Positions 14,454 to 28,460 of a stretch of DNA of 47,280 nucleotides are shown in pieces. A program made the translations under genes and the position numbers. The stretch spans positions 1-47,280 of the forward strand of contig DASSKL010000038.1 in assembly GCA_035690485.1 (NCBI GenBank), read 5' to 3'. How positions within the stretch are numbered: the stretch's first letter is position 1; each line of letters starts with the position of its first letter. The DNA comes from Mycobacteriales bacterium. GTDB lineage: Bacteria; Actinomycetota; Actinomycetes; JAFAQI01; DASSKL01. The notes under the pieces are model-generated. The model had not been told where the DNA came from and ran no database searches. It was given only the letters and a program-made list of their open reading frames with translations.

Positions 14454-14491
14454 GCGTGCATTCCGGCGTTCTGACGACCGAGGAGACCCAG

Positions 14492-15988
14492 ATGGCTTCC
14501 GACCAGCACGTCGACGTCCTCATCGTCGGCGCCGGTCTGTCGGGCATCGGCGCCGCGTGCCGGCTGCAGATGGAGTGCCCGGGCAAGACGTTCACGATCC
14601 TCGAGGCGCGCGAGGCCATCGGCGGCACGTGGGACCTCTTCCGCTACCCGGGCATCCGATCCGACTCGGACATGTACACCCTGGGCTACGACTTCCGGCC
14701 GTGGACCGAGGCCAAGGCGATCGCCGACGGGCCGTCGATCCTCAACTACATTCGCGAGACCGCGAGAGACTACGGCGTCGACCGGCACATCCGGTTCAAC
14801 CACCGCGTGGTGCGAGCCGCCTGGTCGACCGACGACGCGGTCTGGACCGTCGAGTCGGAGCGCTCCGACACCGGCGAGACGGTGCGGTTCACCTGCGGCT
14901 TCCTGTTCATGTGCAGCGGTTACTACCGCTACGACCAGGGCTACCTGCCCGAGTTCCCGGGCGTGGAGCGGTTCGCCGGTCCGGTCGTGCACCCGCAGCA
15001 CTGGCCCGAGGACCTCGACTACGACGGCAAGCGCGTCGTCGTCGTCGGCAGCGGGGCGACAGCGGTCACGCTCGTGCCCGCGATGGCCGAGCGCGCGGCC
15101 CACGTGACGATGCTCCAGCGTTCCCCGACCTACGTCGTGTCGATGCCGGCGAAGGACCCCATCGCGACGCGGCTGCGCCGGTGGCTGCCGGAGATGCGCG
15201 CCTACCAGGCGGTGCGCTGGAAGAACGTGCTGCTGACGATGCTCAGCTACCAGCTGAGCCGCCGGGTGCCGCAGGTCGTGCGCGCCGGCATTCGCAAGGG
15301 CGTCGAGAAGCAGCTCGGTCCCGACTACGACATCGACACGCACTTCAACCCGCGCTACGACCCGTGGGACCAGCGCATGTGCCTGGTGCCCGACGGCGAC
15401 CTGTTCGCGGCCATCAGCAGCGGCCGCGCCTCGATCGTGACCGACACCATCGAGACCTTCGACGAGACCGGCATCCAGCTGACCTCCGGTGAGCGCCTCG
15501 AGGCCGACGTGGTCATCACCGCCACGGGGCTCAACATGCTCGCCCTCGGCGGCATGCAGATCAGCGTCGACGGCCGCGCGGTCGAGCTGCACGAGACCGT
15601 CGCCTACAAGGGGATGATGTTCAGCGGCATCCCGAACCTCGCCGCGGCCATGGGCTACACCAACGCCTCGTGGACACTGAAGTGCGACCTCGTGTGCGCC
15701 TACGTCTGCCGGCTGCTGGGCCGGATGGACGAGCTCGGCGTCCGGCAGGTCACGCCGCGCTGGCCGGGCGGCTCGCTGCCCGACAGCCCCTTCATCGACC
15801 TGACGTCCGGCTACGTCATGCGGTCGATCGACAAGTTCCCCAAGCAGGGGCGCCGGTCGCCGTGGCGGCTCTACCAGAACTACATCCGCGACATCGTGCT
15901 GCTCAAGCGCGCACCGCTCGACGACGGCGCCGTCGAGTTCTCCAACCCGGTGCCGGCCGGCCGCCCCGCCGAGCGCGTCGCCGTCTGA
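14492..15988 (+). CDS. Type I Baeyer-Villiger monooxygenase, EthA-like
   Basis: A 498-residue FAD/NADPH monooxygenase that inserts oxygen next to a carbonyl or oxidises sulfur. The FAD-binding GAGLSG is at 13-18, the Baeyer-Villiger fingerprint FAGPVVHPQHWP at 161-172 and the NADPH-binding GSGATA at 187-192. The family blocks GGTWDLFRYPGIRSDSDM and YTNASWTLK match mycobacterial EthA closely from memory. ATG at 14492 is chosen because GAGGAG (14480-14485) lies six bases upstream. The gene stands alone after the tRNA hairpin. The natural substrate is unknown. Confidence 0.9.
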   Translation: MASDQHVDVLIVGAGLSGIGAACRLQMECPGKTFTILEAREAIGGTWDLFRYPGIRSDSDMYTLGYDFRPWTEAKAIADGPSILNYIRETARDYGVDRHIRFNHRVVRAAWSTDDAVWTVESERSDTGETVRFTCGFLFMCSGYYRYDQGYLPEFPGVERFAGPVVHPQHWPEDLDYDGKRVVVVGSGATAVTLVPAMAERAAHVTMLQRSPTYVVSMPAKDPIATRLRRWLPEMRAYQAVRWKNVLLTMLSYQLSRRVPQVVRAGIRKGVEKQLGPDYDIDTHFNPRYDPWDQRMCLVPDGDLFAAISSGRASIVTDTIETFDETGIQLTSGERLEADVVITATGLNMLALGGMQISVDGRAVELHETVAYKGMMFSGIPNLAAAMGYTNASWTLKCDLVCAYVCRLLGRMDELGVRQVTPRWPGGSLPDSPFIDLTSGYVMRSIDKFPKQGRRSPWRLYQNYIRDIVLLKRAPLDDGAVEFSNPVPAGRPAERVAV

Positions 15989-16916: not shown

Positions 16917-17990
16917 GTGAGCGAGCATCTCGACGAAGCCGCGCCGGTCCGCACCGGTGACGACCTGGACTGGCCGCGCATCGAGTCCTACCTGCGCGAG
17001 CACCTCGAAGGCGCCGAGGGCGAGTTCACGGTGCTGCAGTTCCCGCACGGTGCGGCCAACCTGACCTACCTGCTGCGCTTCGGTGACCGCGAGTTCGTGC
17101 TGCGGCGACCGCCGTTCGGCGTCATCGCACCAGGCGCGCACGACATGCGGCGGGAGTTCCGGGTGCTGTCGCGGCTGTGGCGGGTCTTCGACCTCGCCCC
17201 CCGGGCCTACGTCTTCTGCGACGACCACGACGTCGCCGGTGCCGACTTCTTCGTCATGCAGCGCCGGGACGGCGTCGTCATTCGCGGCGTGCTGCCGCCG
17301 TCGATGGCCGGGCTGCCGGACGTAGGCCGGCGCATCGGCTTCGCTGTCGTCGAGGCGATGGCCGCGCTGCACCTCGTCGACCCGGCGGCGGCCGACCTGG
17401 CCGACCTCGGCCGGCCGGAGGGCTTCGTCGCCCGGCAGGTGTCCGGCTGGAAGAAGCGCTGGGACCTGGTTGCGGACGAGGCCAACACGCCGGTCATGAC
17501 CGAGGTGCACGAACGGCTCGAGCGCACGATGCCCCGACCGAGCCGCGCGTCGCTGGTGCACAACGACCTCAAGCTGGACAACTGCCAGTTCGACCCGGCC
17601 GACCCGGACCGGGTTGTGTCCATCTTCGACTGGGACATGACGACGGTCGGCGACCCGCTGGTCGACCTGGGCACCCTGCTCAACTACTGGCCCGACCCTG
17701 CCGACCCACCGCAGGCGGCGCGCGGCGCGCATCCCGGGGAGCGGCAGATGGGCCTCCCGTCACGTGCCGAGATCGTGCAGCGGTACGCCGAACGCACCGG
17801 CACTCCGGTCGAGTCGATCGGCTGGTACGAAGCCTTCGCGCAGTGGAAGACGGCCGTCGTCGTGCAGCAGCTCTACAACCGTTTCGCTCGGGGCGAGACG
17901 CAGGACACCCGCATGGCACACCAGGCCGACCGGGTCCCGGCGCTGGCGGCGGGAGCGCTGGAGCTGATCGAGGGGATTCCGGCGGGGTGA
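16917..17990 (+). CDS. APH-fold phosphotransferase family protein
   Basis: A 357-residue protein with the aminoglycoside/choline kinase fold. A nucleotide-binding N-lobe (FPHGAANLTYLLRFGDREFVLR) is followed by the catalytic loop HNDLKLDN (215-222) and the metal-binding DWD of IFDWDMTTVGDPLVDLG (238-240). It resembles the APH-like domain found with acyl-CoA dehydrogenases of the ACAD10/11 type, so a hydroxyacyl-CoA or similar substrate is more likely than an antibiotic; this is inference. The start is GTG at 16917. Its stop overlaps the start of the fatty-acid regulator gene, so the two are probably co-translated. Confidence 0.82.
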   Translation: MSEHLDEAAPVRTGDDLDWPRIESYLREHLEGAEGEFTVLQFPHGAANLTYLLRFGDREFVLRRPPFGVIAPGAHDMRREFRVLSRLWRVFDLAPRAYVFCDDHDVAGADFFVMQRRDGVVIRGVLPPSMAGLPDVGRRIGFAVVEAMAALHLVDPAAADLADLGRPEGFVARQVSGWKKRWDLVADEANTPVMTEVHERLERTMPRPSRASLVHNDLKLDNCQFDPADPDRVVSIFDWDMTTVGDPLVDLGTLLNYWPDPADPPQAARGAHPGERQMGLPSRAEIVQRYAERTGTPVESIGWYEAFAQWKTAVVVQQLYNRFARGETQDTRMAHQADRVPALAAGALELIEGIPAG

Positions 17991-19177
17991 CGCCCACGCC
18001 GGCGGGCAAGGCAGCGCAGCGCACCCATGCGCGGGCGGCGCGGCGGCTTCAGCGCGCCGCGGGCAGGCTTGCCACCACCGCCCTGGAGCGCATGGAGGCG
18101 ACGCTGCCGTGGTTCGCCGCGCTGCCGGCCGACCAGCGGTCGTGGGTCGGGCTCGTCGTGCAGTCGGGCCTGGCCGGCTTCGCCCGGTGGCTGCGTGAGC
18201 CGGAGAGCAGCGAGCGGGTGACACTCGACGTCTTCGCCACCGCGCCGCGGGAGATGGCCCGGCTGATCACGCTGCAGCAGACCGTCGAGCTCGTCCGCAT
18301 CGTCGTCGACATCGCGGAGGAGGCGGCGGCGGACCTGGCCGACCCCGGTGAGGAGGCGTGGCTGCGCGAGTCGACCCTGCGCTTCTCCCGGGAGATCGCG
18401 TTCGCCGCAGCCACGGTCTACGCCCGCGCCGCCGAGCAGCGCGGTGCGTGGGACGCCCGGCTCGAGGCCCTCGTCGTCGACGCGATCCTGCGCGGCGAAC
18501 CCGACGACACGTTGCTCTCCCGCGCCTCGGCCCTCGGCTGGGCCGACCCGCCCGCGGTCACCGTCGTCGCCGGCCGCTCGCCGCACGACGACCCCGAGGC
18601 GGTGGTCGAGGCGGTCCACCGCCGGGCAGCCGTCGAACGACTGCAGGTGCTCGCCGGGGTGCAGGGCACCCGGCTCGTCGTGGTGCTCGGCGGCGACGGC
18701 ACCCTCGACCGCGGGGTGCGCATCCTCGCCGACGCCTTCGGAGCCGGCCCGGTCGTCGTCGGGCCGACCGTCGGCTCGCTCTCAGGCGCATGGTCCTCCG
18801 CGCTCGAGGCGCTCGCCGCACTGCGCGCCGCGCCCGCGTGGCCCGCCGTACCCCGGCCGGTGCCGGCCGCGGCTTTGCTCCCCGAGCGAGCGCTCAACGG
18901 AGAGCCCGTCGCGCTGCAGGCCCTCGTCGACACCGTCTTCGCGCCGTTGCGCGACGCCGGCGGCTCGCTCCTCGAGACGGTCGAGGCCTATCTCGACTGC
19001 GGGGGGGCGGTCGAGGCGACCGCGCGCGCCCTCTACGTGCACGCCAACACCGTCCGCTACCGCCTGGGCCGTGTGGCCGACCTCTGTGGCCTTTCCCCAA
19101 ATGATCCACGGGACGGCTACGTGCTCCGCACCGCTATTACGGCAGGACGGCTACGCCCGGTCGAGGGCGCGTTGTAG
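17987..19177 (+). CDS. fasR: PucR-type regulator, FasR-like
   Basis: A 396-residue DNA-binding regulator. The C-terminus has the PucR-type helix-turn-helix (ALYVHANTVRYRLGRVADLCGLS), the middle a GGDEF-like/sensor region typical of the family, and the N-terminus an uncharacterised helical domain. Its position just before fabD matches FasR of Streptomyces, an activator of the fabD-H-acpP-F operon. The start is a GTG overlapping the stop of the kinase gene (GTGA). The stop lies inside a perfect inverted repeat that may be its own binding site. Confidence 0.85.
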   Translation: MTPTPAGKAAQRTHARAARRLQRAAGRLATTALERMEATLPWFAALPADQRSWVGLVVQSGLAGFARWLREPESSERVTLDVFATAPREMARLITLQQTVELVRIVVDIAEEAAADLADPGEEAWLRESTLRFSREIAFAAATVYARAAEQRGAWDARLEALVVDAILRGEPDDTLLSRASALGWADPPAVTVVAGRSPHDDPEAVVEAVHRRAAVERLQVLAGVQGTRLVVVLGGDGTLDRGVRILADAFGAGPVVVGPTVGSLSGAWSSALEALAALRAAPAWPAVPRPVPAAALLPERALNGEPVALQALVDTVFAPLRDAGGSLLETVEAYLDCGGAVEATARALYVHANTVRYRLGRVADLCGLSPNDPRDGYVLRTAITAGRLRPVEGAL

Positions 19178-19210: not shown

Positions 19211-19256
19211 GCGTCGTCCGACGACACCCGGCGCCCGGCCGGGCGAGGGTGGAGAC

Positions 19257-20429
19257 GTGCTCGCCCTCCTCGCCCCCGGCCAGGGGTCACAGACCCCCGG
19301 CTTCCTCGCTCCCTGGCTCGACCTGCCGGGTGTCGCCGACCGCGTGCGCTGGCACGGCACCGTGGCCGGTCGGGACCTGCTCACGGCCGGTGCCGACCCG
19401 GACTTCCCCGACGTCGTCGACACCGCCGTCGCCCAGCCCCTGATCGTCGCCGCGGGCCTCGCGACGGCACCGCTGCTCGGTGATCTGCCGATGGGCACCC
19501 CGGTGGCCGGCCACAGCGTCGGGGAGTTCACGGCGGCGGTCCTGGCCGGCGCGCTCGACCCGAGTGCGGGGCTCGCACTCGTCGGCGAGCGGGGCCGTGC
19601 CATGGCCGAGGCCTCTGCCCGCACCGACGGGGGGATGACGGCGATCCTCGGTGGCGACGCCGACGAGGTGGAGCGCGCGGTGAGCGCCGCCGGCTGCGTC
19701 GTCGCCAACCACAACGGCGCCGGGCAGGCCGTGGCGGCCGGGCCGCGCGCCGCGCTCGAGCGGCTCGCTGCGGCACCGCCCGCCGGGGCGCGGTTGCGAC
19801 CGCTGTCGGTCGCCGGCGCGTTCCACACGGAGCTCATGGCCGCCGCCCAGCGGGTGCTGGCCGACGTCGCGGCCGGCGTCTCCGCGAAGGACCCGCGGCT
19901 GCCGTTCGTGTCCAATGCCGACGGCGCGGTCGTCGACCGCGGCAGCGAGCTGGTGGCCCGGCTGGTGGCGCAGGTGAGCCGCCCGGTCCGCTGGGACAGC
20001 TGCATGCAGACCCTCGGTGCGATGGGCGTCACGGCCGTGATCGAGCTCCCGCCGGCGGGCACCCTGACCGGGCTGGTGCGCCGGGCGCTCCCCGGCGTAC
20101 GCACCGTCGCCCTTCGCGGACCGGACGACCTCGACGAGGCGCGCGCGCTGATCGCGGAGTTCGCCCACGTCGACGTGTCGCCGCTGCTGCCGTGGCGAGT
20201 GCTCGTGGCACCGGTCGGCGGCACGTTCCGCGCAGAGCCGGTGGTTCCCGGCGACAAGCTGCCGGAGGGCACCGAGGTCGGCCGGGTGGTGTCGCACCGC
20301 GACGAGACGGCCGTTCGCACGGCCCACGGCGGCGTGCTGGTGGAGTGGCTGGCGCAGGACGGCGACCCGGTCGCCCCGGGACAGGCGCTGGCCCGGCTGC
20401 ACCCCGAGACCGCGGACGTCGTGGCATGA
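19257..20429 (+). CDS. fabD: Malonyl-CoA:ACP transacylase with C-terminal biotinyl/lipoyl-like domain
   Basis: Moves malonyl from CoA to acyl carrier protein. The 390 residues are about 80 longer than usual FabD. The transacylase domain (1-300) has PGQGSQ (7-12), the nucleophile in GHSVGE (Ser87), Arg112 and the catalytic His in AFHTELM (His190). Residues ~313-383 look like a biotinyl/lipoyl-type barrel: LVAPVGGTF, then VRTAHGGVLVEWLAQDGDPVAPGQ and ALARLHP. The turn where biotin or lipoate is attached reads SHRDET and has no Lys. The start is GTG at 19257 after GGTGGAG. fabH overlaps the stop. Confidence 0.93.
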   Translation: MLALLAPGQGSQTPGFLAPWLDLPGVADRVRWHGTVAGRDLLTAGADPDFPDVVDTAVAQPLIVAAGLATAPLLGDLPMGTPVAGHSVGEFTAAVLAGALDPSAGLALVGERGRAMAEASARTDGGMTAILGGDADEVERAVSAAGCVVANHNGAGQAVAAGPRAALERLAAAPPAGARLRPLSVAGAFHTELMAAAQRVLADVAAGVSAKDPRLPFVSNADGAVVDRGSELVARLVAQVSRPVRWDSCMQTLGAMGVTAVIELPPAGTLTGLVRRALPGVRTVALRGPDDLDEARALIAEFAHVDVSPLLPWRVLVAPVGGTFRAEPVVPGDKLPEGTEVGRVVSHRDETAVRTAHGGVLVEWLAQDGDPVAPGQALARLHPETADVVA

Positions 20430-21379
20430 AGGCCCGCAGCGGCGCACCCGGCGCGCGCATCCTCGCGGTCGCCGATCACCGACCGGCGCGGTCGGTCAGC
20501 AACGACGACCTGTCGCAGGTCCTCGACACCTCGGACGAGTGGATCCGCGAACGCACCGGCATCGCCCATCGCGGTGTCGCCGACGCCGCGGAGAGCGTGG
20601 TGGCGATGGCGGCCGACGCCGCCGGCAAGGCGCTGGCGGCCGCCGGCGTCGACCCGGCGCAGGTAGACCTCGTCGTGCTCGCCAGCTGCACGATGCCGAC
20701 CCCGATCCCCGGTGGTGCGGCTCGGCTCGCGCGGCTCATCGGCGCCGGATCTCCGGGGGCCTACGACGTCAACGGCGCCTGCGCCGGCTTCTGCTACGGG
20801 CTGGCCGCCGCGGCTGACGCGGTGCGCGCGGGCAGCGCTCGCTACGTGGTCGTCGCCGGTGCGGAGCGGCTGTCCGACTGGCTCGACTGGACCGACCGGT
20901 CGACCGCGGTGATCTTCGGTGACGGGGCGGGTGCGGTCGTGGTCGGGCCCGCCGACGAGCCCGGTATCGGCCCGGTGGTCTGGGGCAGCGACGGCGACCG
21001 GCACGCGCTGATCCAGGTGCCGTCGGGCGGTCACCTCGAGATGGACGGTCCGGCGGTCTTCCGGTGGGCGACCACGTCGCTCGCCGCGATCGCGGAGCAG
21101 GCCTGCGACGCCGCGGGCATTGCGCCGAGCGATCTCGCGGCGTTCGTGCCGCACCAGGCCAACCTGCGCATCATCACCGCGGTGGTGCGCCGGCTCGCCA
21201 TTCCCGACGTCGTCATCGCCGACGACATCGTCTCGGCCGGCAACACGTCGTCGGCGTCGATCCCCATGGCGCTCACCGCGCTGCAGGCCGAAGGCCGGGT
21301 CGCCGGCGGCGACCTCGCGCTGCTGCTCGGCTTCGGCGCCGGCCTCACCTGGGCCGGCCAAGTCGTCCGCGTGCCCTGA
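20426..21379 (+). CDS. fabH: 3-oxoacyl-ACP synthase III
   Basis: Starts fatty acid chains by condensing an acyl-CoA with malonyl-ACP. The 317 residues carry the Cys-His-Asn triad: Cys119 in VNGACAGFCYG, His243 in VPHQANLRI and Asn273 in SAGNTSSAS. GDGAGAVVVG is also present. ATG at 20426 overlaps the fabD stop (ATGA), so translation is coupled. In Actinobacteria FabH often prefers branched primers, but the sequence does not settle this. Confidence 0.96.
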   Translation: MKARSGAPGARILAVADHRPARSVSNDDLSQVLDTSDEWIRERTGIAHRGVADAAESVVAMAADAAGKALAAAGVDPAQVDLVVLASCTMPTPIPGGAARLARLIGAGSPGAYDVNGACAGFCYGLAAAADAVRAGSARYVVVAGAERLSDWLDWTDRSTAVIFGDGAGAVVVGPADEPGIGPVVWGSDGDRHALIQVPSGGHLEMDGPAVFRWATTSLAAIAEQACDAAGIAPSDLAAFVPHQANLRIITAVVRRLAIPDVVIADDIVSAGNTSSASIPMALTALQAEGRVAGGDLALLLGFGAGLTWAGQVVRVP

Positions 21380-21415: not shown

Positions 21416-21664
21416 ATGTCCCAGCAGGAGATCCTCGACGCGCTCGCCGAGATCGTGCACGAGGTGACCGGCATCCCGATCCGTGAGGTCGAGCCGGGCA
21501 AGTCGTTCAGCAAGGACCTCGACATCGACTCGCTGTCGATGGTGGAGATCGCGACGGCGGCCGAGGACCGGTTCGGCGTGAGCATCCCCGACGAGTCGCT
21601 CGGCCAGCTGAAGACCGTCGCCGACGCCGTCGCCTACATCGAGAAGGCCGGCGTTCCGGCATGA
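21416..21664 (+). CDS. acpP: Acyl carrier protein
   Basis: Carries growing acyl chains on a 4'-phosphopantetheine arm. The 82-residue acidic protein has the attachment serine in DIDSLSMVE (Ser39). AAGGAG (21405-21410) five bases before the ATG is the strongest ribosome binding site in the cluster, matching the need for large amounts of ACP. It overlaps fabF by four bases. Confidence 0.97.
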   Translation: MSQQEILDALAEIVHEVTGIPIREVEPGKSFSKDLDIDSLSMVEIATAAEDRFGVSIPDESLGQLKTVADAVAYIEKAGVPA

Positions 21665-22887
21665 GTCGTGAGGTCGTCGTCACCGGCCTCGGCGCGGTGA
21701 CCCCGCTCGGCGGCGACATGACGTCGACCTGGTCGGCGCTGGTCGCCGGCACGTCCGGCGCCCGCCTGCTCGAGGACGACTGGGCGGCCGAGCTGCCGGT
21801 GCGCATCGCCGCACCGGCAGCGGTCGACCCCGCCGAGGTGCTCGACCGGGTCGAGGCGCGAACCCTCGACCGCGGGCAGCAGCTCGCGGTCGTGGCGGCC
21901 GGCGAGGCGTGGACCGACGCCGGCGCTCCCGACGTGGAGCCCGAACGCCTGGCCATCGTCATCGGCACCGGCATCGGCGGCGTCCTCACCACGCTCGCCG
22001 CCTACGACACGCTGAAGGAACGCGGCGCCCGCCGCGTCTCGCCGCACACCGTGCCGATGCTCATGCCCAACGGGCCGGCGGCCGCCGTGGGCCTGCGGCT
22101 CGGTGCGCGGGCCGGGGTGCACGCGCCGGTGTCGGCATGCGCGTCGGGCGCCGAAGCCGTCGCGCTGGCGCTCGACCTGGTCCGGTCCGGCCGCGCCGAC
22201 GTTGTCGTCTGCGGGGGCACGGAGGCGGCGATCCACCCGTTGCCGATCGCGGCGTTCGCCTCGATGCGGGCGCTCTCGACGCGGGAGTCCGAACCCGCGG
22301 CCGCCTCGCGGCCGTTCGACAAGGGCCGTGACGGCTTCGTCCTCGGAGAGGGCGCCGGGGTGCTCGTCGTCGAGTCGGCCGAGCACGCGGCTGCGCGCGG
22401 GCGGACGGCGTACGCCGTGCTCGCCGGAGCCGGCATCAGCGCCGACTCCCACCACGTCGCAGCACCGGAGCCGACGGGTGCGGGCGCGGCGCGTGCCATG
22501 CAGGGAGCGCTGCGCGACGCGGGGCTGGCACCCGAGGACGTGCGGCACGTGAACGCCCACGCGACCTCGACACCCGCCGGCGACGTGGCCGAGTCGTCGG
22601 CCATCCGCACGGCGTTCGGCCCCGCGGCCGGGCAGCTCGCCGTGACCGCCACCAAGTCCTGCACAGGCCACCTGCTCGGTGCCGCCGGCGCGGTCGAGGC
22701 GGCGCTCACCGTCCTGTCACTGCATCACCATCTGGTGCCGGCGGTGCGCAACCTCGACGACCCCGACGACGAGGTTCAGCTCGACGTCGTCCGCGTCGAC
22801 CCGCGGCCCCTCGCGCCGGGTGCGGCGCTGTCCAACTCGTTCGGCTTCGGCGGGCACAACGTGGCGCTCGCCTTCATGGAGGTCTGA
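21661..22887 (+). CDS. fabF: 3-oxoacyl-ACP synthase II
   Basis: Elongating condensing enzyme of type II fatty acid synthesis. The 408 residues have the Cys-His-His set: Cys160 in SACASGAEA, His300 in NAHATSTPAGD and His337 in KSCTGHLLGAAGA. The C-terminal NSFGFGGHNV is typical. It starts with ATG in an ATGA overlap with acpP and shares one base with the start of the carboxylase gene. Confidence 0.96.
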   Translation: MSREVVVTGLGAVTPLGGDMTSTWSALVAGTSGARLLEDDWAAELPVRIAAPAAVDPAEVLDRVEARTLDRGQQLAVVAAGEAWTDAGAPDVEPERLAIVIGTGIGGVLTTLAAYDTLKERGARRVSPHTVPMLMPNGPAAAVGLRLGARAGVHAPVSACASGAEAVALALDLVRSGRADVVVCGGTEAAIHPLPIAAFASMRALSTRESEPAAASRPFDKGRDGFVLGEGAGVLVVESAEHAAARGRTAYAVLAGAGISADSHHVAAPEPTGAGAARAMQGALRDAGLAPEDVRHVNAHATSTPAGDVAESSAIRTAFGPAAGQLAVTATKSCTGHLLGAAGAVEAALTVLSLHHHLVPAVRNLDDPDDEVQLDVVRVDPRPLAPGAALSNSFGFGGHNVALAFMEV

Positions 22888-24302
22888 TGACCCTGCTCAG
22901 CGACCACCCGCGCGCAGTCGAGCGTCAGGGTGTCGCCGACGAGCGCGACCCCCGGGTGCGCCTGGCGCGGCTCTTCGACGCCGACTCGCTCACCGTGCTG
23001 CGCGACGACACCGGTTGCGGTGTCGTCGCCGGCATCGGCGTGGTCGACGGGACAGAGGTCGTCGCGTTCGCCACCGACGCGTCGGTGCAGGGCGGGGCGA
23101 TGGGCGCCGAGGGCTGCGCGGCCATCGCGTCGGCCTACGACGTGGCGATCCGCGCCCGGGCGCCGATCGTCGGCATCTGGCACTCCGGCGGCGCCCGGCT
23201 GCGGGAGGGGGTGACCTCGCTCGACGGCGTCGGGCGGGTGTTCGCCGCGATGACCCGCGCCTCCGGCCGGGTGCCCCAGGTGTCGGTCGTGCTCGGCCCG
23301 GCCGCCGGGGGAGCGGCCTACGGTCCCGCGCTCACCGACGTCGTGGTGCTCGGACCGCAGGGCCGCATCTTCGTCACCGGTCCCGACGTCGTCCGCAGCG
23401 TCACCGGCGAGGACGTCGACATGGCGCGGCTCGGCGGTCCGGAGCCGCACGGCCGGCGCAGCGGCGTCGCCCATCTGGTCACCGACACCGACGACGCCGC
23501 CTTCGACGCGGCGCGGCAGGTGGTCACGTTGCTCGGAACGCCGCGGCGGGTCGGCCCGGCGAGCGACCGGCCCTTCGCGACGCTGCTGCCGGAGTCCGCG
23601 CGCCGCGCCTACGACGTGCACCCGCTCGTCGACGCGCTGCTCGACCTTCCCGGCGTGGAGTTGCACCCGCGCTGGGCGCCCAGCATCGTGACCACGCTCG
23701 GCCGGCTCGGCGGCGGCTCCGTCGGGGTGCTCGCCAACAACCCGCAGCGTCTCGGCGGCTGCCTCGACGCCGCGTCCGCGGAGAAGGCGGCCCGTTTCGT
23801 GCGGATGTGCGACGCGTTCGGCCTCCCGCTCGTCGTGCTCGTCGACGTACCCGGGTACCTGCCGGGCGTCGGGCAGGAGTGGGACGGGGTCGTACGCCGC
23901 GGGGCCAAGCTGCTCCACGCCTTCGCCGAGGCGCGGGTGCCGCGGGTCACGGTCATCACCCGTAAGGCTTACGGCGGCGCCTACATCGCCATGAACTCGC
24001 GGTCGCTCGGCGCCACGTCGGTGCTCGCCTGGCCCGACGCGCAGGTCGACGTGATGGGCGCGGTCGCCGCGGTGCGGGTGCTGCACCGGCGCAGGCTCGC
24101 CGAGGTCCCGGAGTCGCACCGCGCGGCACTGGAGGAAGAGCTCGCGATCGAGCACGTGCAGCTGTCCGGCGGGCTGGCGACTGCGGTGACCGAGGGGTCG
24201 GTCGACGCGGTCATCGAGCCCGACCGCACCCGCAGCGTCGTGGCATCCGCCATCGCGGCGGCACCCGCCGAACGCGGCCTGCACGGAAACATCCCGCTGT
24301 GA
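22887..24302 (+). CDS. accD: Acyl-CoA carboxylase beta (carboxyltransferase) subunit
   Basis: Carboxyltransferase subunit that moves CO2 from carboxybiotin to acetyl-CoA or propionyl-CoA. The 471 residues form two crotonase-like halves: an N-terminal half with IVGIWHSGGARLREGV and PAAGGAAYGPALTD, and a C-terminal half with LVDVPGYLPGVGQE and RKAYGGAYIAMNS. The length and position in a fatty-acid operon match mycobacterial AccD6. The biotin-carrying alpha subunit is not in the window. The start overlaps the fabF stop (TGATG), with GGAGG just upstream. Confidence 0.93.
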   Translation: MTLLSDHPRAVERQGVADERDPRVRLARLFDADSLTVLRDDTGCGVVAGIGVVDGTEVVAFATDASVQGGAMGAEGCAAIASAYDVAIRARAPIVGIWHSGGARLREGVTSLDGVGRVFAAMTRASGRVPQVSVVLGPAAGGAAYGPALTDVVVLGPQGRIFVTGPDVVRSVTGEDVDMARLGGPEPHGRRSGVAHLVTDTDDAAFDAARQVVTLLGTPRRVGPASDRPFATLLPESARRAYDVHPLVDALLDLPGVELHPRWAPSIVTTLGRLGGGSVGVLANNPQRLGGCLDAASAEKAARFVRMCDAFGLPLVVLVDVPGYLPGVGQEWDGVVRRGAKLLHAFAEARVPRVTVITRKAYGGAYIAMNSRSLGATSVLAWPDAQVDVMGAVAAVRVLHRRRLAEVPESHRAALEEELAIEHVQLSGGLATAVTEGSVDAVIEPDRTRSVVASAIAAAPAERGLHGNIPL

Positions 24303-25003
24303 GCAGGTCGGTCCTGGTCACCGGCGGCAGCCGGGGCATCGGTCTCGCCACCGCCCGGGCATTCGCCGCTCTCGGCGACAAGGTCGCGGTCGCGCACTGG
24401 TCGACCACGCCGCCGGACGGCTTCTACGCCGTGAAGTGCGACGTGAGGTCGACCGACAGCGTGCGTGAAGCCGTCGCGGGGGTCGTCGCGGAACAGGGTC
24501 CGGTGCAGGTGCTCGTCGCCGGCGCCGGGGTCACCCGCGACACCTTGCTCATGCGGATGGCGGATGACGCCTGGGCCGACGTGCTCGACGCCAACCTGTC
24601 CGGGGCCTGGAGGGTTGCCCGCGAGGTCGTCCCGGGGATGGTGCGCGCGCGGGGCGGCCGGCTGCTCTTCCTGTCGAGCGTCGTCGGCCTGCTCGGATCG
24701 GCGGGCCAGGCCAACTACGCCGCCTCCAAGGCGGGCCTGGTCGGGCTGGCGCGGTCCTTGGCCCGCGAGCTCGGGTCCCGCGGCATCACCTCGAACGTCG
24801 TGGCGCCCGGGTTCGTCGACACCGACATGACCGCGGTGCTCACCGACGAGCAGCGCGCCGACATCGTCGCCCGCACGCCCCTCGGCCGCACCGCACAGGC
24901 CGAGGAGGTCGCGGCCGTGCTGACGTTCCTCGCCAGCGACGCAGCGGCGTTCATCACCGGTGCGGTGGTGCCGGTCGACGGCGGACTCGGGATGGGGCAC
25001 TGA
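24299..25003 (+). CDS. fabG: 3-oxoacyl-ACP reductase
   Basis: NADPH-dependent reductase of the 3-keto group. The 234-residue short-chain dehydrogenase has TGGSRGIG (8-15) for cofactor binding, the NAG-like AGAGV block and the Ser127, Tyr140, Lys144 catalytic set. VAPGFVDTDM and GAVVPVDGGLGMGH are typical of FabG and MabA. The start is GTG in a GTGA overlap with the carboxylase gene. fabI begins two bases after the stop, as in the mycobacterial mabA-inhA pair. Confidence 0.95.
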   Translation: MSRSVLVTGGSRGIGLATARAFAALGDKVAVAHWSTTPPDGFYAVKCDVRSTDSVREAVAGVVAEQGPVQVLVAGAGVTRDTLLMRMADDAWADVLDANLSGAWRVAREVVPGMVRARGGRLLFLSSVVGLLGSAGQANYAASKAGLVGLARSLARELGSRGITSNVVAPGFVDTDMTAVLTDEQRADIVARTPLGRTAQAEEVAAVLTFLASDAAAFITGAVVPVDGGLGMGH

Positions 25004-25004
25004 C

Positions 25005-25772
25005 ATGGGCCTGCTGTCCGGCAAGTCGGTGCTCGTCACCGGCGTGCTGACCGACAAGTCGATCGCGTTCCGGGTGGCCGAGGTCGCCCAGCGCGAAGGT
25101 GCTGCGGTGGTGCTGACGGGTGTCGGGCGCAGCCTGTCGCTCACCCGGCGGATCGCCGGTCGGCTGCCGCGGCCGGCCCCCGTGGTCGCGCTCGACGTGA
25201 CCGATGAGGAGCAGCTCGCCGCGCTGCCCGTCGCGGTGCGCGAGCACGTCGACTCACTCGACGGTGTGCTGCACGCCATCGGTTTCGCGCCTCCGTCGGC
25301 ACTCGGCGGCGGCTTCATCGACGCGCCCTGGTCCGATGTCGCGACCGCGCTGCACGTGTCGACGTACTCCCTGGCCGCACTCACCAAGGCGGCGCTGCCG
25401 CTGATGCCGGGCGGGGGATCGGTCGTGGGGCTCGACTTCGACGCGACCGTGGCCTGGCCGGCGTACGACTGGATGGGTGTCGCCAAGGCGGGGCTGGAGT
25501 CCGCGACCCGCTATCTCGCCAGGGACCTGGGCTCGAGCGGCGTGCGGGTCAACCTGGTCGCGGCCGGACCGCTGCGCACGATGGCGGCGCGCAGCATCCC
25601 GGGCTTCGCCGACTTCGAGTCGGTCTGGAAGGACCGCGCGCCGCTCGGCTGGGACCTCGACGACGCCGAGCCGGTCGCCCGGGCGTGCGTGGCGTTGCTG
25701 TCGGACTGGTTCCCGGCGACGACGGGGTCCGTCGTCTACGTCGACGGAGGCGTGCACGCCGTCGGCTGCTAG
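25005..25772 (+). CDS. fabI: Enoyl-ACP reductase (FabI/InhA type)
   Basis: Last reduction of each elongation cycle, using NADH. The 255 residues start with GKSVLVTGVLTDKSIAFRVAEV, the typical FabI cofactor region (with a Thr-Asp-Lys-Ser-Ile segment). The catalytic pair is Tyr154 and Lys161 in AYDWMGVAKAGLES. DFDATVAWP resembles the InhA substrate loop. ATG at 25005 follows the fabG stop closely. This is the last gene of the fatty-acid cluster and ends before a convergent minus-strand gene. Confidence 0.95.
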   Translation: MGLLSGKSVLVTGVLTDKSIAFRVAEVAQREGAAVVLTGVGRSLSLTRRIAGRLPRPAPVVALDVTDEEQLAALPVAVREHVDSLDGVLHAIGFAPPSALGGGFIDAPWSDVATALHVSTYSLAALTKAALPLMPGGGSVVGLDFDATVAWPAYDWMGVAKAGLESATRYLARDLGSSGVRVNLVAAGPLRTMAARSIPGFADFESVWKDRAPLGWDLDDAEPVARACVALLSDWFPATTGSVVYVDGGVHAVGC

Positions 25773-26101: not shown

Positions 26102-26107
26102 ACTCTA
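26102..26107 (-). promoter_or_regulatory. -10 box for leaderless DUF2277 transcript
   Basis: On the minus strand TAGAGT is followed by seven bases and the ATG at 26094. It overlaps the last codon of the sirtuin gene. Confidence 0.5.
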
Positions 26108-26875
26108 GGACGGGGAGAGAGCGGCACGGACGACGTCGGGCAGCACCTCGCCGATCCGCGCGCGCAGCACGACCGTCGCCATCGCGTCGTAGGGGGTCGG
26201 GTCGGCGTTGAGGATGACGAGCCGGGCGCCGTGGCCGACCGCCACGTCACACAGTCCCGCCGCCGGGTGCACCTGCAGCGTGGAGCCGATCGCCAGCATC
26301 AGGTCGCAGTCGGCGGCCGCCTGCCAGGCGCGCTCCAGCACCTCGGGGTCGAGCGCCTGACCGAACGAGATCGTCGCCGACTTCAGGATGCCGCCACAGC
26401 GTTCGCAGGGGGGATCGGGGAGCTCGTCGCTGACCCGCTCGAGCGTCTCCGCCATCGGCGTCCGGTCGCCGCACGCCACGCACTGGGCGAACCACACGGT
26501 GCCGTGCAGCTCGATCACTCTCTCGGCGCTGGAGCCGGCGCGCTGATGCAGGCCGTCGACGTTCTGCGTGGCCACGGCGCGCAGCTTGCCGGCGCGCTCC
26601 AGGTCGACGAGGGCGTGGTGGCCGGAGTTGGGCTGGGCGGTCCAGGCGCCGTGCGACTTGCGGGCCTGCCAGGCCCGACGGCGTACGTCCGGGTCGGCCA
26701 GGTAGGTCTGCAGCGTCGCCTGCTTCTCGGCCGCGGGGTTGCGAGTCCACACGCCCTGGGGCCCCCGGAAGTCGGGGATGCCCGAGTCGGTGGAGATTCC
26801 GGCACCGGTCAGAGCCGCGATCTTCTCGGCGTCACGCAGCAGAGTGACCACGCGGTCGATGTCCGGCTGCGGCAT
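26105..26875 (-). CDS. Sir2-family NAD-dependent protein deacetylase (sirtuin)
   Basis: Removes acyl groups from lysine using NAD. The 256 residues have all sirtuin marks: GAGIST (24-29), PDFRG (34-38), TQNVDGLH (103-110), catalytic His124 in ELHGT, a zinc site of Cys132, Cys135, Cys157 and Cys160, and GSTLQVHPA. Its place after a fatty-acid cluster may be chance; sirtuins often control acyl-CoA synthetases. TACCGT six bases before the ATG suggests a leaderless message. Confidence 0.94.
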   Translation of the reverse strand: MPQPDIDRVVTLLRDAEKIAALTGAGISTDSGIPDFRGPQGVWTRNPAAEKQATLQTYLADPDVRRRAWQARKSHGAWTAQPNSGHHALVDLERAGKLRAVATQNVDGLHQRAGSSAERVIELHGTVWFAQCVACGDRTPMAETLERVSDELPDPPCERCGGILKSATISFGQALDPEVLERAWQAAADCDLMLAIGSTLQVHPAAGLCDVAVGHGARLVILNADPTPYDAMATVVLRARIGEVLPDVVRAALSPS

Positions 26876-26897: not shown

Positions 26898-28400
26898 CTA
26901 CTTGAAGACGAGGGCGCCGTCGTCGAGGTCGGCCGCCGGCAGCGCTTCCTTCTCGACGCCGTAGTCGTGCAGCAGCCGCCACGGGTCGCGGTCGCCCTGC
27001 TTCGGCATGAGATGCAGCGAGCGGGTCAGGTAGCCGGGGTTGAAGTTGTCGGGATCGACCCATGGCCCGAGCGGCATGCCCACCTCGTCGTCACGCAGCG
27101 CGGGGGTCACCATCGTCGCCCCGCGCTCCTCCATGTGCGCCAGCAGCTTGCAGACGAAGTCGCTGATGAGGTCGGCGCGCAACGTCCAGCTGGCGCGGAA
27201 GTAGCCGAAGACGTAGGCCAGGTTCGGTACGCCGGTGAACATGATTCCCCGGTAGGTGACCGTGTCCGCGAAGTCGAGCGGGCCGTCGTCGATGCGGAAG
27301 GCGATGCCCCCGAGCACGCTGAGGTCGAAGCCGGTCGCGGTGACGATGATGTCGGCCTCGAGCTCCTCCCCGGAGACCAGCCGGATGCCCGTCTCGGTGA
27401 ACGTCTCGATGTGGTCGGTGACCACCGACGCCTTGCCGGCGGTGACCGCGTGGAACAGGTCGCCACCGAGCAGCACGGCGATGCGCTGCTGCCACGGCCG
27501 GTAGCGCGGGTTGAAGTGCTTGTCGACGTCGAAGCCCTCGGGCAGCAACGGCCGGATCGTGTCGAGCAGGAACGTCCGCAGCACCTCGGGATCCTCGAAC
27601 GACATCTTCGTGACCGCGTCCTGGTCGTGCAGGATCTTGCGCCGCACGATCTCGTGCGTCCACTCGTCGGGGATGTCGAGCTCGCGCAGCGTCTCGGCCA
27701 GCTCGTTGACGTTGGGCCGCACGAAGAAGAACGTGGGGGAGCGCTGGAGCATCGTGACGTGCGCGGCTTCGTCTGCGATCGAGGGGATGAGCGTCGCCGC
27801 CGTTGCGCCGGAGCCGATGACGACGACTCGCTTGCCTGCGTAGTCGAGGTCATCCGGCCAGGTCTGCGGGTGCACGATCCGGCCACGGAAGCGGTCCATG
27901 CCGGGCCAGTCGGGCGTGTAGCCCTGCCGGTGCTCGTAGTAGCCCTGGCACATCCAGAGGAAGTTGCACGTGAACACCTGCAGCTCGTCGTCGTCGAGCC
28001 GCACGACCTCGACGGTCCACTGCCGCAGGTCGGTCGACCAGCTCGCCGAGACGATCCGGTGCCGGTAGCGGATGTGCCGGTCGAGGTGGTTCTCGTCGAT
28101 GACCTCGCCGAGGTAGTGCAGGATCTCGTCGGCGGTCGCGATCGGCGTGCCGCGCCAGGGCTTGAACCGGTAGCCGAAGGTGAACAGGTCGCTGTCGGAA
28201 CGCACCCCCGGGTAGCGATGCGTCCACCAGGTGCCGCCGTAGTGGTCCAGCGCGTCGAGGACCACGAAGCTCGTGCCCGGCCGCTGCTGCTGCAGGTGGT
28301 AGGCCGCGCCGATCCCGGAGATGCCGGCGCCGACGATGAGTACGTCGACGTGCTCGACGGCTACCTCGGCGCCCGCCGCCGCGGTCTGGCTGTTCGGCAT
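26898..28400 (-). CDS. Type I Baeyer-Villiger monooxygenase, second EthA-like copy
   Basis: A 500-residue FAD/NADPH monooxygenase, clearly related to the one at 14492. The FAD site GAGISG is at 24-29, the fingerprint FRGRIVHPQTWP at 171-182 and the NADPH site GSGATA at 197-202. The block GGTWWTHRYPGVRSDSDL replaces GGTWDLFRYPGIRSDSDM of the first copy. ATG at 28400 is supported by GGAGGG about eight bases upstream. A perfect palindrome lies about 60 bases upstream and may be an operator. The two copies probably differ in substrate, since the middle region (about 215-290) is the most divergent. Confidence 0.9.
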   Translation of the reverse strand: MPNSQTAAAGAEVAVEHVDVLIVGAGISGIGAAYHLQQQRPGTSFVVLDALDHYGGTWWTHRYPGVRSDSDLFTFGYRFKPWRGTPIATADEILHYLGEVIDENHLDRHIRYRHRIVSASWSTDLRQWTVEVVRLDDDELQVFTCNFLWMCQGYYEHRQGYTPDWPGMDRFRGRIVHPQTWPDDLDYAGKRVVVIGSGATAATLIPSIADEAAHVTMLQRSPTFFFVRPNVNELAETLRELDIPDEWTHEIVRRKILHDQDAVTKMSFEDPEVLRTFLLDTIRPLLPEGFDVDKHFNPRYRPWQQRIAVLLGGDLFHAVTAGKASVVTDHIETFTETGIRLVSGEELEADIIVTATGFDLSVLGGIAFRIDDGPLDFADTVTYRGIMFTGVPNLAYVFGYFRASWTLRADLISDFVCKLLAHMEERGATMVTPALRDDEVGMPLGPWVDPDNFNPGYLTRSLHLMPKQGDRDPWRLLHDYGVEKEALPAADLDDGALVFK

Positions 28401-28460
28401 GGCTTGGTCCCTCCGACGAGCGGTGAGGGCGCGGGATGCGCCCGCCACCGACGCGCGGTA

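Follow-up and report, generated by a model that had tools for sequence, protein, structure and literature searches.

The window analysed here, a 47,280-nucleotide stretch of contig DASSKL010000038.1 from a Mycobacteriales bacterium, carries a type II fatty acid synthesis (FAS-II) operon in the order fasR-fabD-fabH-acpP-fabF-accD-fabG-fabI. The fabD gene (19257–20429, + strand) starts at GTG and encodes a malonyl-CoA:ACP transacylase of 390 residues with an extra C-terminal domain; its stop codon overlaps the ATG of fabH at 20426. NCBIfam identifies, in each case above cut-off, fabH (20426–21379, +; beta-ketoacyl-ACP synthase 3/III), acpP (21416–21664, +; acyl carrier protein equivalog), fabF (21661–22887, +; beta-ketoacyl-ACP synthase II subfamily) and fabI (24996–25772, +; enoyl-ACP reductase FabI equivalog), and fabG (24299–25003, +) matches 3-oxoacyl-ACP reductase families. 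The accD gene (22887–24302, +) encodes a carboxyltransferase (CT) beta subunit of the AccD6 type: of the CT beta subunits, AccD6 is the one nearest to it, and its best PDB match is Mycobacterium tuberculosis AccD6 (4fb8, E 4.9e-179). Upstream of fabD lies a gene for a FasR-like regulator (17990–19177, +), an orthologue of which occupies the upstream position in nearly all compared loci; since it has no NCBIfam match, we take it to be FasR from its position and general knowledge. Judged from their translations only, a Sir2-type deacetylase-like ORF (26105–26875, −) is convergent with the end of the operon, and two similar flavin-dependent monooxygenase-like genes (14456–15988, +, and 26898–28448, −) flank the fab region.

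The FabD catalytic domain, including its last helix (PDDLDEARALIAEF), is encoded by 19257–20162 (+), and ordinary FabD stops here. It is 54% identical to Streptomyces coelicolor FabD (1nm2) over 303 residues. The acyltransferase signature is complete (the Ser of GHSxG, the active-site Arg, the His of GAFHT and the Gln), with the catalytic GHSVGE, Arg, GAFHT and Gln kept in 19 of 19 aligned homologues. The protein misses the NCBIfam cut-offs of both the fabD equivalog (168 versus 261 bits needed) and malonate_mdcH (196 versus 298 bits needed). We rejected MdcH (malonate decarboxylase epsilon) as the identity: it is the top NCBIfam match yet is below its cut-off, and the operon is one for FAS-II. 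FabD is preferred because the operon context and the closest structures, which are FabDs, decide the matter.

Beyond a short linker (20172–20186, +; residues 307–311 when numbered from 19254), probably flexible with pLDDT below 50, a further domain of about 73–75 residues is encoded by 20193–20411 (+), starting at the Trp at 20193. A sequence-only reading of this DNA had proposed, from the residue pattern, that this tail is a barrel-sandwich hybrid, and structure prediction and profile comparison bear the proposal out. AlphaFold2 models the tail on its own as a beta domain (mean pLDDT 90.5) and the full-length FabD with a mean pLDDT of 92, with low confidence at the linker; blocks with pLDDT above 90 are found in the tail in both models. 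The pTM of the 391-residue FabD model is 0.77, and because this is the value for a fixed catalytic domain alone, the orientation of the tail is probably not fixed. In Foldseek searches the nearest solved structures to the tail are biotin carriers (5gua, TM 0.89 by target, 1.4 Å rmsd; 1bdo, 0.83). The tail family profile matches the biotin carrier 1o78 (1.3S transcarboxylase) with E = 2.4e-11, and hhalign aligns it with the genuine biotinyl and lipoyl domains encoded in the window's own genome at 98.0% (E 2.7e-13) over 65 gap-free columns. The single window protein is below the Pfam biotinyl/lipoyl gathering threshold (13.8 versus 22.1 bits), which a few homologues pass (L018, L021). Chance does not explain the tail: 26 of 40 relatives, spread over many families, have a recognisable version of it in which W, AP, G, E, GDP and GQ are invariant. 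The motifs, coordinates and reading frame given earlier were correct, as was the gene order, with fabD two genes upstream of acpP and four upstream of the carboxyltransferase. Elsewhere in the window's genome, a 1162-residue ORF (L006, G000:C76) encodes a single carboxylase chain in which a true biotinyl AMKM domain precedes a carboxyltransferase; it could be another source of malonyl-CoA.

The tail thus has the fold of a biotinyl/lipoyl carrier and lacks the modifiable hairpin Lys (in AMKM for biotin), having an Arg instead. In the gap-free profile alignment the hairpin SHRDE (20292–20306, +) stands opposite EAMKM, and Arg replaces the biotinyl Lys; its codon is CGC (20298–20300), and it is residue 348 counted from the GTG, or 349 in the alignment numbering starting at 19254. 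At this position 100 of 114 nonredundant tails have Arg and none (0/114) has Lys. The description of the tail as a pseudo-carrier without a modifiable Lys is therefore upheld, with the addition of the Arg at the aligned site and its conservation, both of which had been missed.

Within the class Actinomycetes we surveyed 297 genomes, of which 271 have a clear FabD; the tail is present in 98 of these, about one third, which rejects its universality in the class. Among the carriers are Nocardioides, Kribbella, Jiangella, Phytoactinopolyspora, Frankiaceae MAGs, Nanopelagicales and some Streptomyces relatives (Streptantibioticus, Wenjunlia). FabD has no tail in core Streptomyces or in mycobacteria-like families, and tail-less FabDs stop just past the same last helix. 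Mapping of the tail state on a FabD+FabF tree gives 15 changes, at least 11 of them on well-supported branches, and tail sequences are 40–60% identical across families. In the sister family f2 the tail is decaying despite the retention of AccD6. In one FabD from the window's own order (L152, genome G006) the middle third of the tail is deleted, including the hairpin, and the related genomes G003 and G007 no longer have a tail, a decay in progress with AccD6 retained. Two peculiarities of the survey concern the records themselves. Seven MAGs titled Sphaerobacter, Rubrivirga or Bifidobacterium breve (L046, L069, L074, L096, L097, L102 and L104) have actinomycete-type fas clusters, and their titles look wrong; Kribbella jiaozuonensis has the same fas cluster at two loci on different scaffolds (L072 and L073), by duplication or as an assembly artefact.

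Outside the class, the tail profile led to small genes next to fabD. In the rest of the phylum the Lys-less module takes one of two forms, a separate gene of about 100–140 codons placed between fabD and fabH or a fusion to FabD. The tail noted from the sequence is thus a real feature of FabD, though not one confined to it. In G477 and G487, for example, a gene for 111–131 residues starts at or overlaps the fabD stop, ahead of fabH, and in their class 11 of 11 matches lie between fabD and fabH. Iterated profiles recover the module in many families, and fabD is adjacent or fused to it in 47 of the 51 genomes whose neighbourhood was read (the exceptions being G324, G449, G547 and G555); fusions account for 12 of those 51, in families f58, f67, f76, f82 and f103. 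By hhalign the separate-module profile matches the FabD tail at 99.1% (E 1.9e-18), a stronger match than that of the tail to true biotinyl domains. In the window's genome the FabD tail is the only match to the separate-gene profile, and it fits the proposed position of the module, in fused form after the FabD catalytic domain and before fabH. Pfam and NCBIfam give weak biotin_lipoyl-like matches only for the separate modules, and no row of a 30-row alignment of the module has Lys at the aligned biotin site. In three genomes (G555, G547 and G449; loci L328, L350 and L326) a free-standing module lies next to accD or fabH with fabD not adjacent, and these neighbours may show the partner of the module directly.

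Within the class, the tail is associated with AccD6. Among loci with enough sequence, accD follows fabF in 96 of 100 with the tail versus 25 of 65 without it; at the genome level, AccD6 is found in 89 of 98 with the tail versus 91 of 173 without. Inspection of 12 complete sets of tail-less genome sequence showed that just a paralogue of 44–47% identity is left. In five families (f27, f29, f34, f35 and f42) the tail-less members are also without AccD6, and nearly all of the tail-bearing members have it. Among 14 independent pairs on the tree that differ in accD, the tail differs in the same direction in about 7 and in the opposite direction in 0.4 (median p 0.016); the test in the other direction gives p 0.07. 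Some of the nine tail-bearing genomes without an AccD6 match are explained by contig ends, and the clear cases are G030, G134, G190 and G206. The hairpin Arg is absent from three of these (G134, G190 and G206) and from G098, whose AccD6 is not linked, and the tails of these four score 76–88 versus a median of 126 for linked tails; in G030 the tail is intact. The Arg is consequently lost in 4 of 5 tails without linked AccD6 and kept in 92 of 97 linked tails. Tail-less lineages, including f5 and f18, retain AccD6, which therefore does not depend on the tail.

A candidate contact site on the carboxyltransferase is the loop of AccD residues 177–191 (VDMARLGGPEPHGRR; 23415–23459, +), which is near-invariant only where FabD has a tail. 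In a comparison of AccD6 from 96 tail-bearing and 25 tail-less loci, the loop reads EPHGRRSG in 90 of the 96 tail-bearing loci, while the tail-less loci have many variants (SKKSG, STKSG, KKNSG, HKKSG); the contrast is also seen within family f26 (L189 versus L151, L197, L198 and L214). As a control, we counted columns whose conservation is 95% or more with the tail and 45% or less without it. AccD has 7 such columns, six of them in 177–191, the FabD catalytic domain has 1 and AcpP 1, while FabH, FabF and FasR have none that meet this contrast. The sole column of the FabD catalytic domain (window 19254–20120) that varies with the tail is Trp 33 (97% versus 32%), a residue that could contact the tail or its partner. 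In G098, the genome with unlinked AccD6 and a tail without the Arg, the AccD loop is altered too; recent tail losers (f2) still keep the loop. Since the tree offers only four well-supported independent pairs for the loop (p at least 0.125), the link between loop and tail is not significant in this test. The loop is not the oxyanion hole, an identity that we rejected: residues 182–183 of S. coelicolor PccB align with window AccD 141–142. It is absent from the contacts of the biotin carboxyl carrier protein (BCCP) hairpin in one propionyl-CoA carboxylase (PMC10148081), and it does not figure in the list of CoA contacts given for MccB (PMC5187497). In the propionyl-CoA carboxylase it is the C-terminal CT domain that the BCCP hairpin touches (PMC10148081), whereas loop 177–191 belongs to the N-terminal half of the CT; docking that simply copies BCCP is for this reason not supported.

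Bacterial type II fatty acid synthesis is usually drawn as a set of free enzymes, and malonyl-CoA channelling in bacteria is an old question. We tentatively regard the tail as a non-catalytic docking module of FabD, with an acyl-CoA carboxylase as its likeliest partner in the Actinomycetes, a reading whose chances we put not far short of even; the carboxylase is chosen as partner because AccD6 comes and goes with the tail and its loop changes with the tail. The tail is one member of a family of lysine-less biotin-carrier-fold modules belonging to FabD; in other classes the module is mostly a small protein of its own, with its gene between fabD and fabH, and in the Actinomycetia, and independently elsewhere, it is fused to FabD via a short linker. 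Such a module would bear no cofactor, with Arg or another residue in place of the biotinyl Lys, and we infer that it docks the malonyl loader to its partners. In the Actinomycetes the partner would be an acyl-CoA carboxylase whose carboxyltransferase is the AccD6-type subunit encoded in this operon, and contact would be made through the Arg hairpin and AccD loop 177–191; malonyl-CoA would thus be made near FabD and may be channelled.

Docking to the carboxylase had already been suggested from the sequence, and it is supported by the linkage and joint absence of tail and AccD6, the loss of the Arg in four of five unlinked tails and the AccD loop; against it stand the many genomes outside the class without fab-linked accD. 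These include families that have the module but whose fab cluster, as far as it is sequenced, contains no accD (f47, f52, f58, f67, f76, f82, f83, f88 and f103). In f67, f76, f82 and f103 the module is fused, its hairpin is shortened (VGEHEVRSPF) and the cluster has no strong accD match; f47, f83, f88 and others have a full-length hairpin without linked accD. We therefore rejected AccD as a universal partner of the module, unless it is encoded elsewhere in these genomes. Because the same domain occurs phylum-wide, often encoded by a small gene of its own next to fabD, the module looks like an overlooked, unnamed FAS-II component. Whether it is, throughout the Actinomycetota, a non-biotinylatable mimic of the biotin carrier that joins acetyl-CoA carboxylase to FabD and channels malonyl-CoA is a wider claim, and one that we find rather doubtful.

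The clusters without linked accD, together with the placing of the separate gene between fabD and fabH in most sampled classes, would also suit an adaptor inside FAS-II that ties FabD to FabH or acyl-ACP and not to the carboxylase. We judge this unlikely, as the columns that vary with the tail in the Actinomycetes number seven in AccD against one in AcpP and none in FabH, and the tail and AccD6 are jointly absent in five families. A role for FabD itself, in stability, oligomerisation or as a lid on the active site, would agree with the repeated fusion to FabD and with the change of the Trp 33 column; it seems less probable still, given that the module is a separate protein elsewhere, that many FabDs function without it (1nm2, 2qc3), that the low-confidence linker and the pTM of the 391-residue model fit an unfixed orientation, and that the link to AccD would be left unexplained. 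That the tail is a functionless, degenerate leftover of a biotin carrier is very improbable. Its missing Lys, its repeated absence over the 15 changes on the tree and the partly deleted copy in L152 would be expected of such a remnant, but 40–60% identity with invariant residues is kept across families, and the Lys-less state is kept phylum-wide in one operon position. In a few of the free-standing copies (L264, L327) a Lys is found one or two positions away from the site, which would allow an active carrier with biotin on a nearby Lys or a modification at some other residue; with the AMKM motif missing and the aligned site free of Lys in all 114 tails and all 30 aligned modules, this reading is hardly credible.

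Docking to the carboxylase, the reading we favour, bears on how malonyl-CoA reaches its use. A phylum-wide non-catalytic module on the malonyl loader, varying with the carboxyltransferase, suggests a physical link between the supply and the use of malonyl-CoA, of which the papers searched hold no description. Our literature search, most subscription papers lying outside it, returned no paper on the FabD tail or on a biotinyl-like gene between fabD and fabH. Neither FabD nor the biotin-carrier fold is new; a Lys-less version as a fixed companion of FAS-II does not appear in that literature. The 75-residue domain, one Arg and one AccD loop offer concrete objects on which channelling of malonyl-CoA can be tested.

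Among known systems, the tail shares the barrel-sandwich fold of biotin carboxyl carrier domains (PF00364; 1o78; the Pyrococcus horikoshii BCCP 5gua/2d5d), and both have two VAP..G...G..V..G half-repeats, aligned over the 65 gap-free columns. Unlike these carriers, the tail lacks the biotinyl Lys and AMKM, has a conserved Arg and is attached to, or encoded beside, FabD. The barrel-sandwich domains of membrane-fusion proteins (HlyD/RND) resemble the tail in being unmodified and give weak sequence matches, but they are periplasmic adaptors of efflux pumps with an unrelated gene context. Ordinary FabDs (S. coelicolor 1nm2, M. tuberculosis 2qc3) are like the window FabD in their catalytic domain, with 47–54% identity and all catalytic residues; they differ in ending, without an extra domain, at about residue 303–317, where the window linker begins. 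AccD6 is a carboxylase subunit that supplies malonyl-CoA, and FabD is a core member of FAS-II complexes (PMC4949712); AccD6 belongs to the mycobacterial FAS-II locus according to a reference cited in PMC4949712. The AccD6 of that locus (4fb8) is the closest relative of the fas-linked carboxyltransferase of the window, but M. tuberculosis differs in that its FabD is tail-less and its AccD6 reads HHKKSG where tail-bearing species have HGRRSG.
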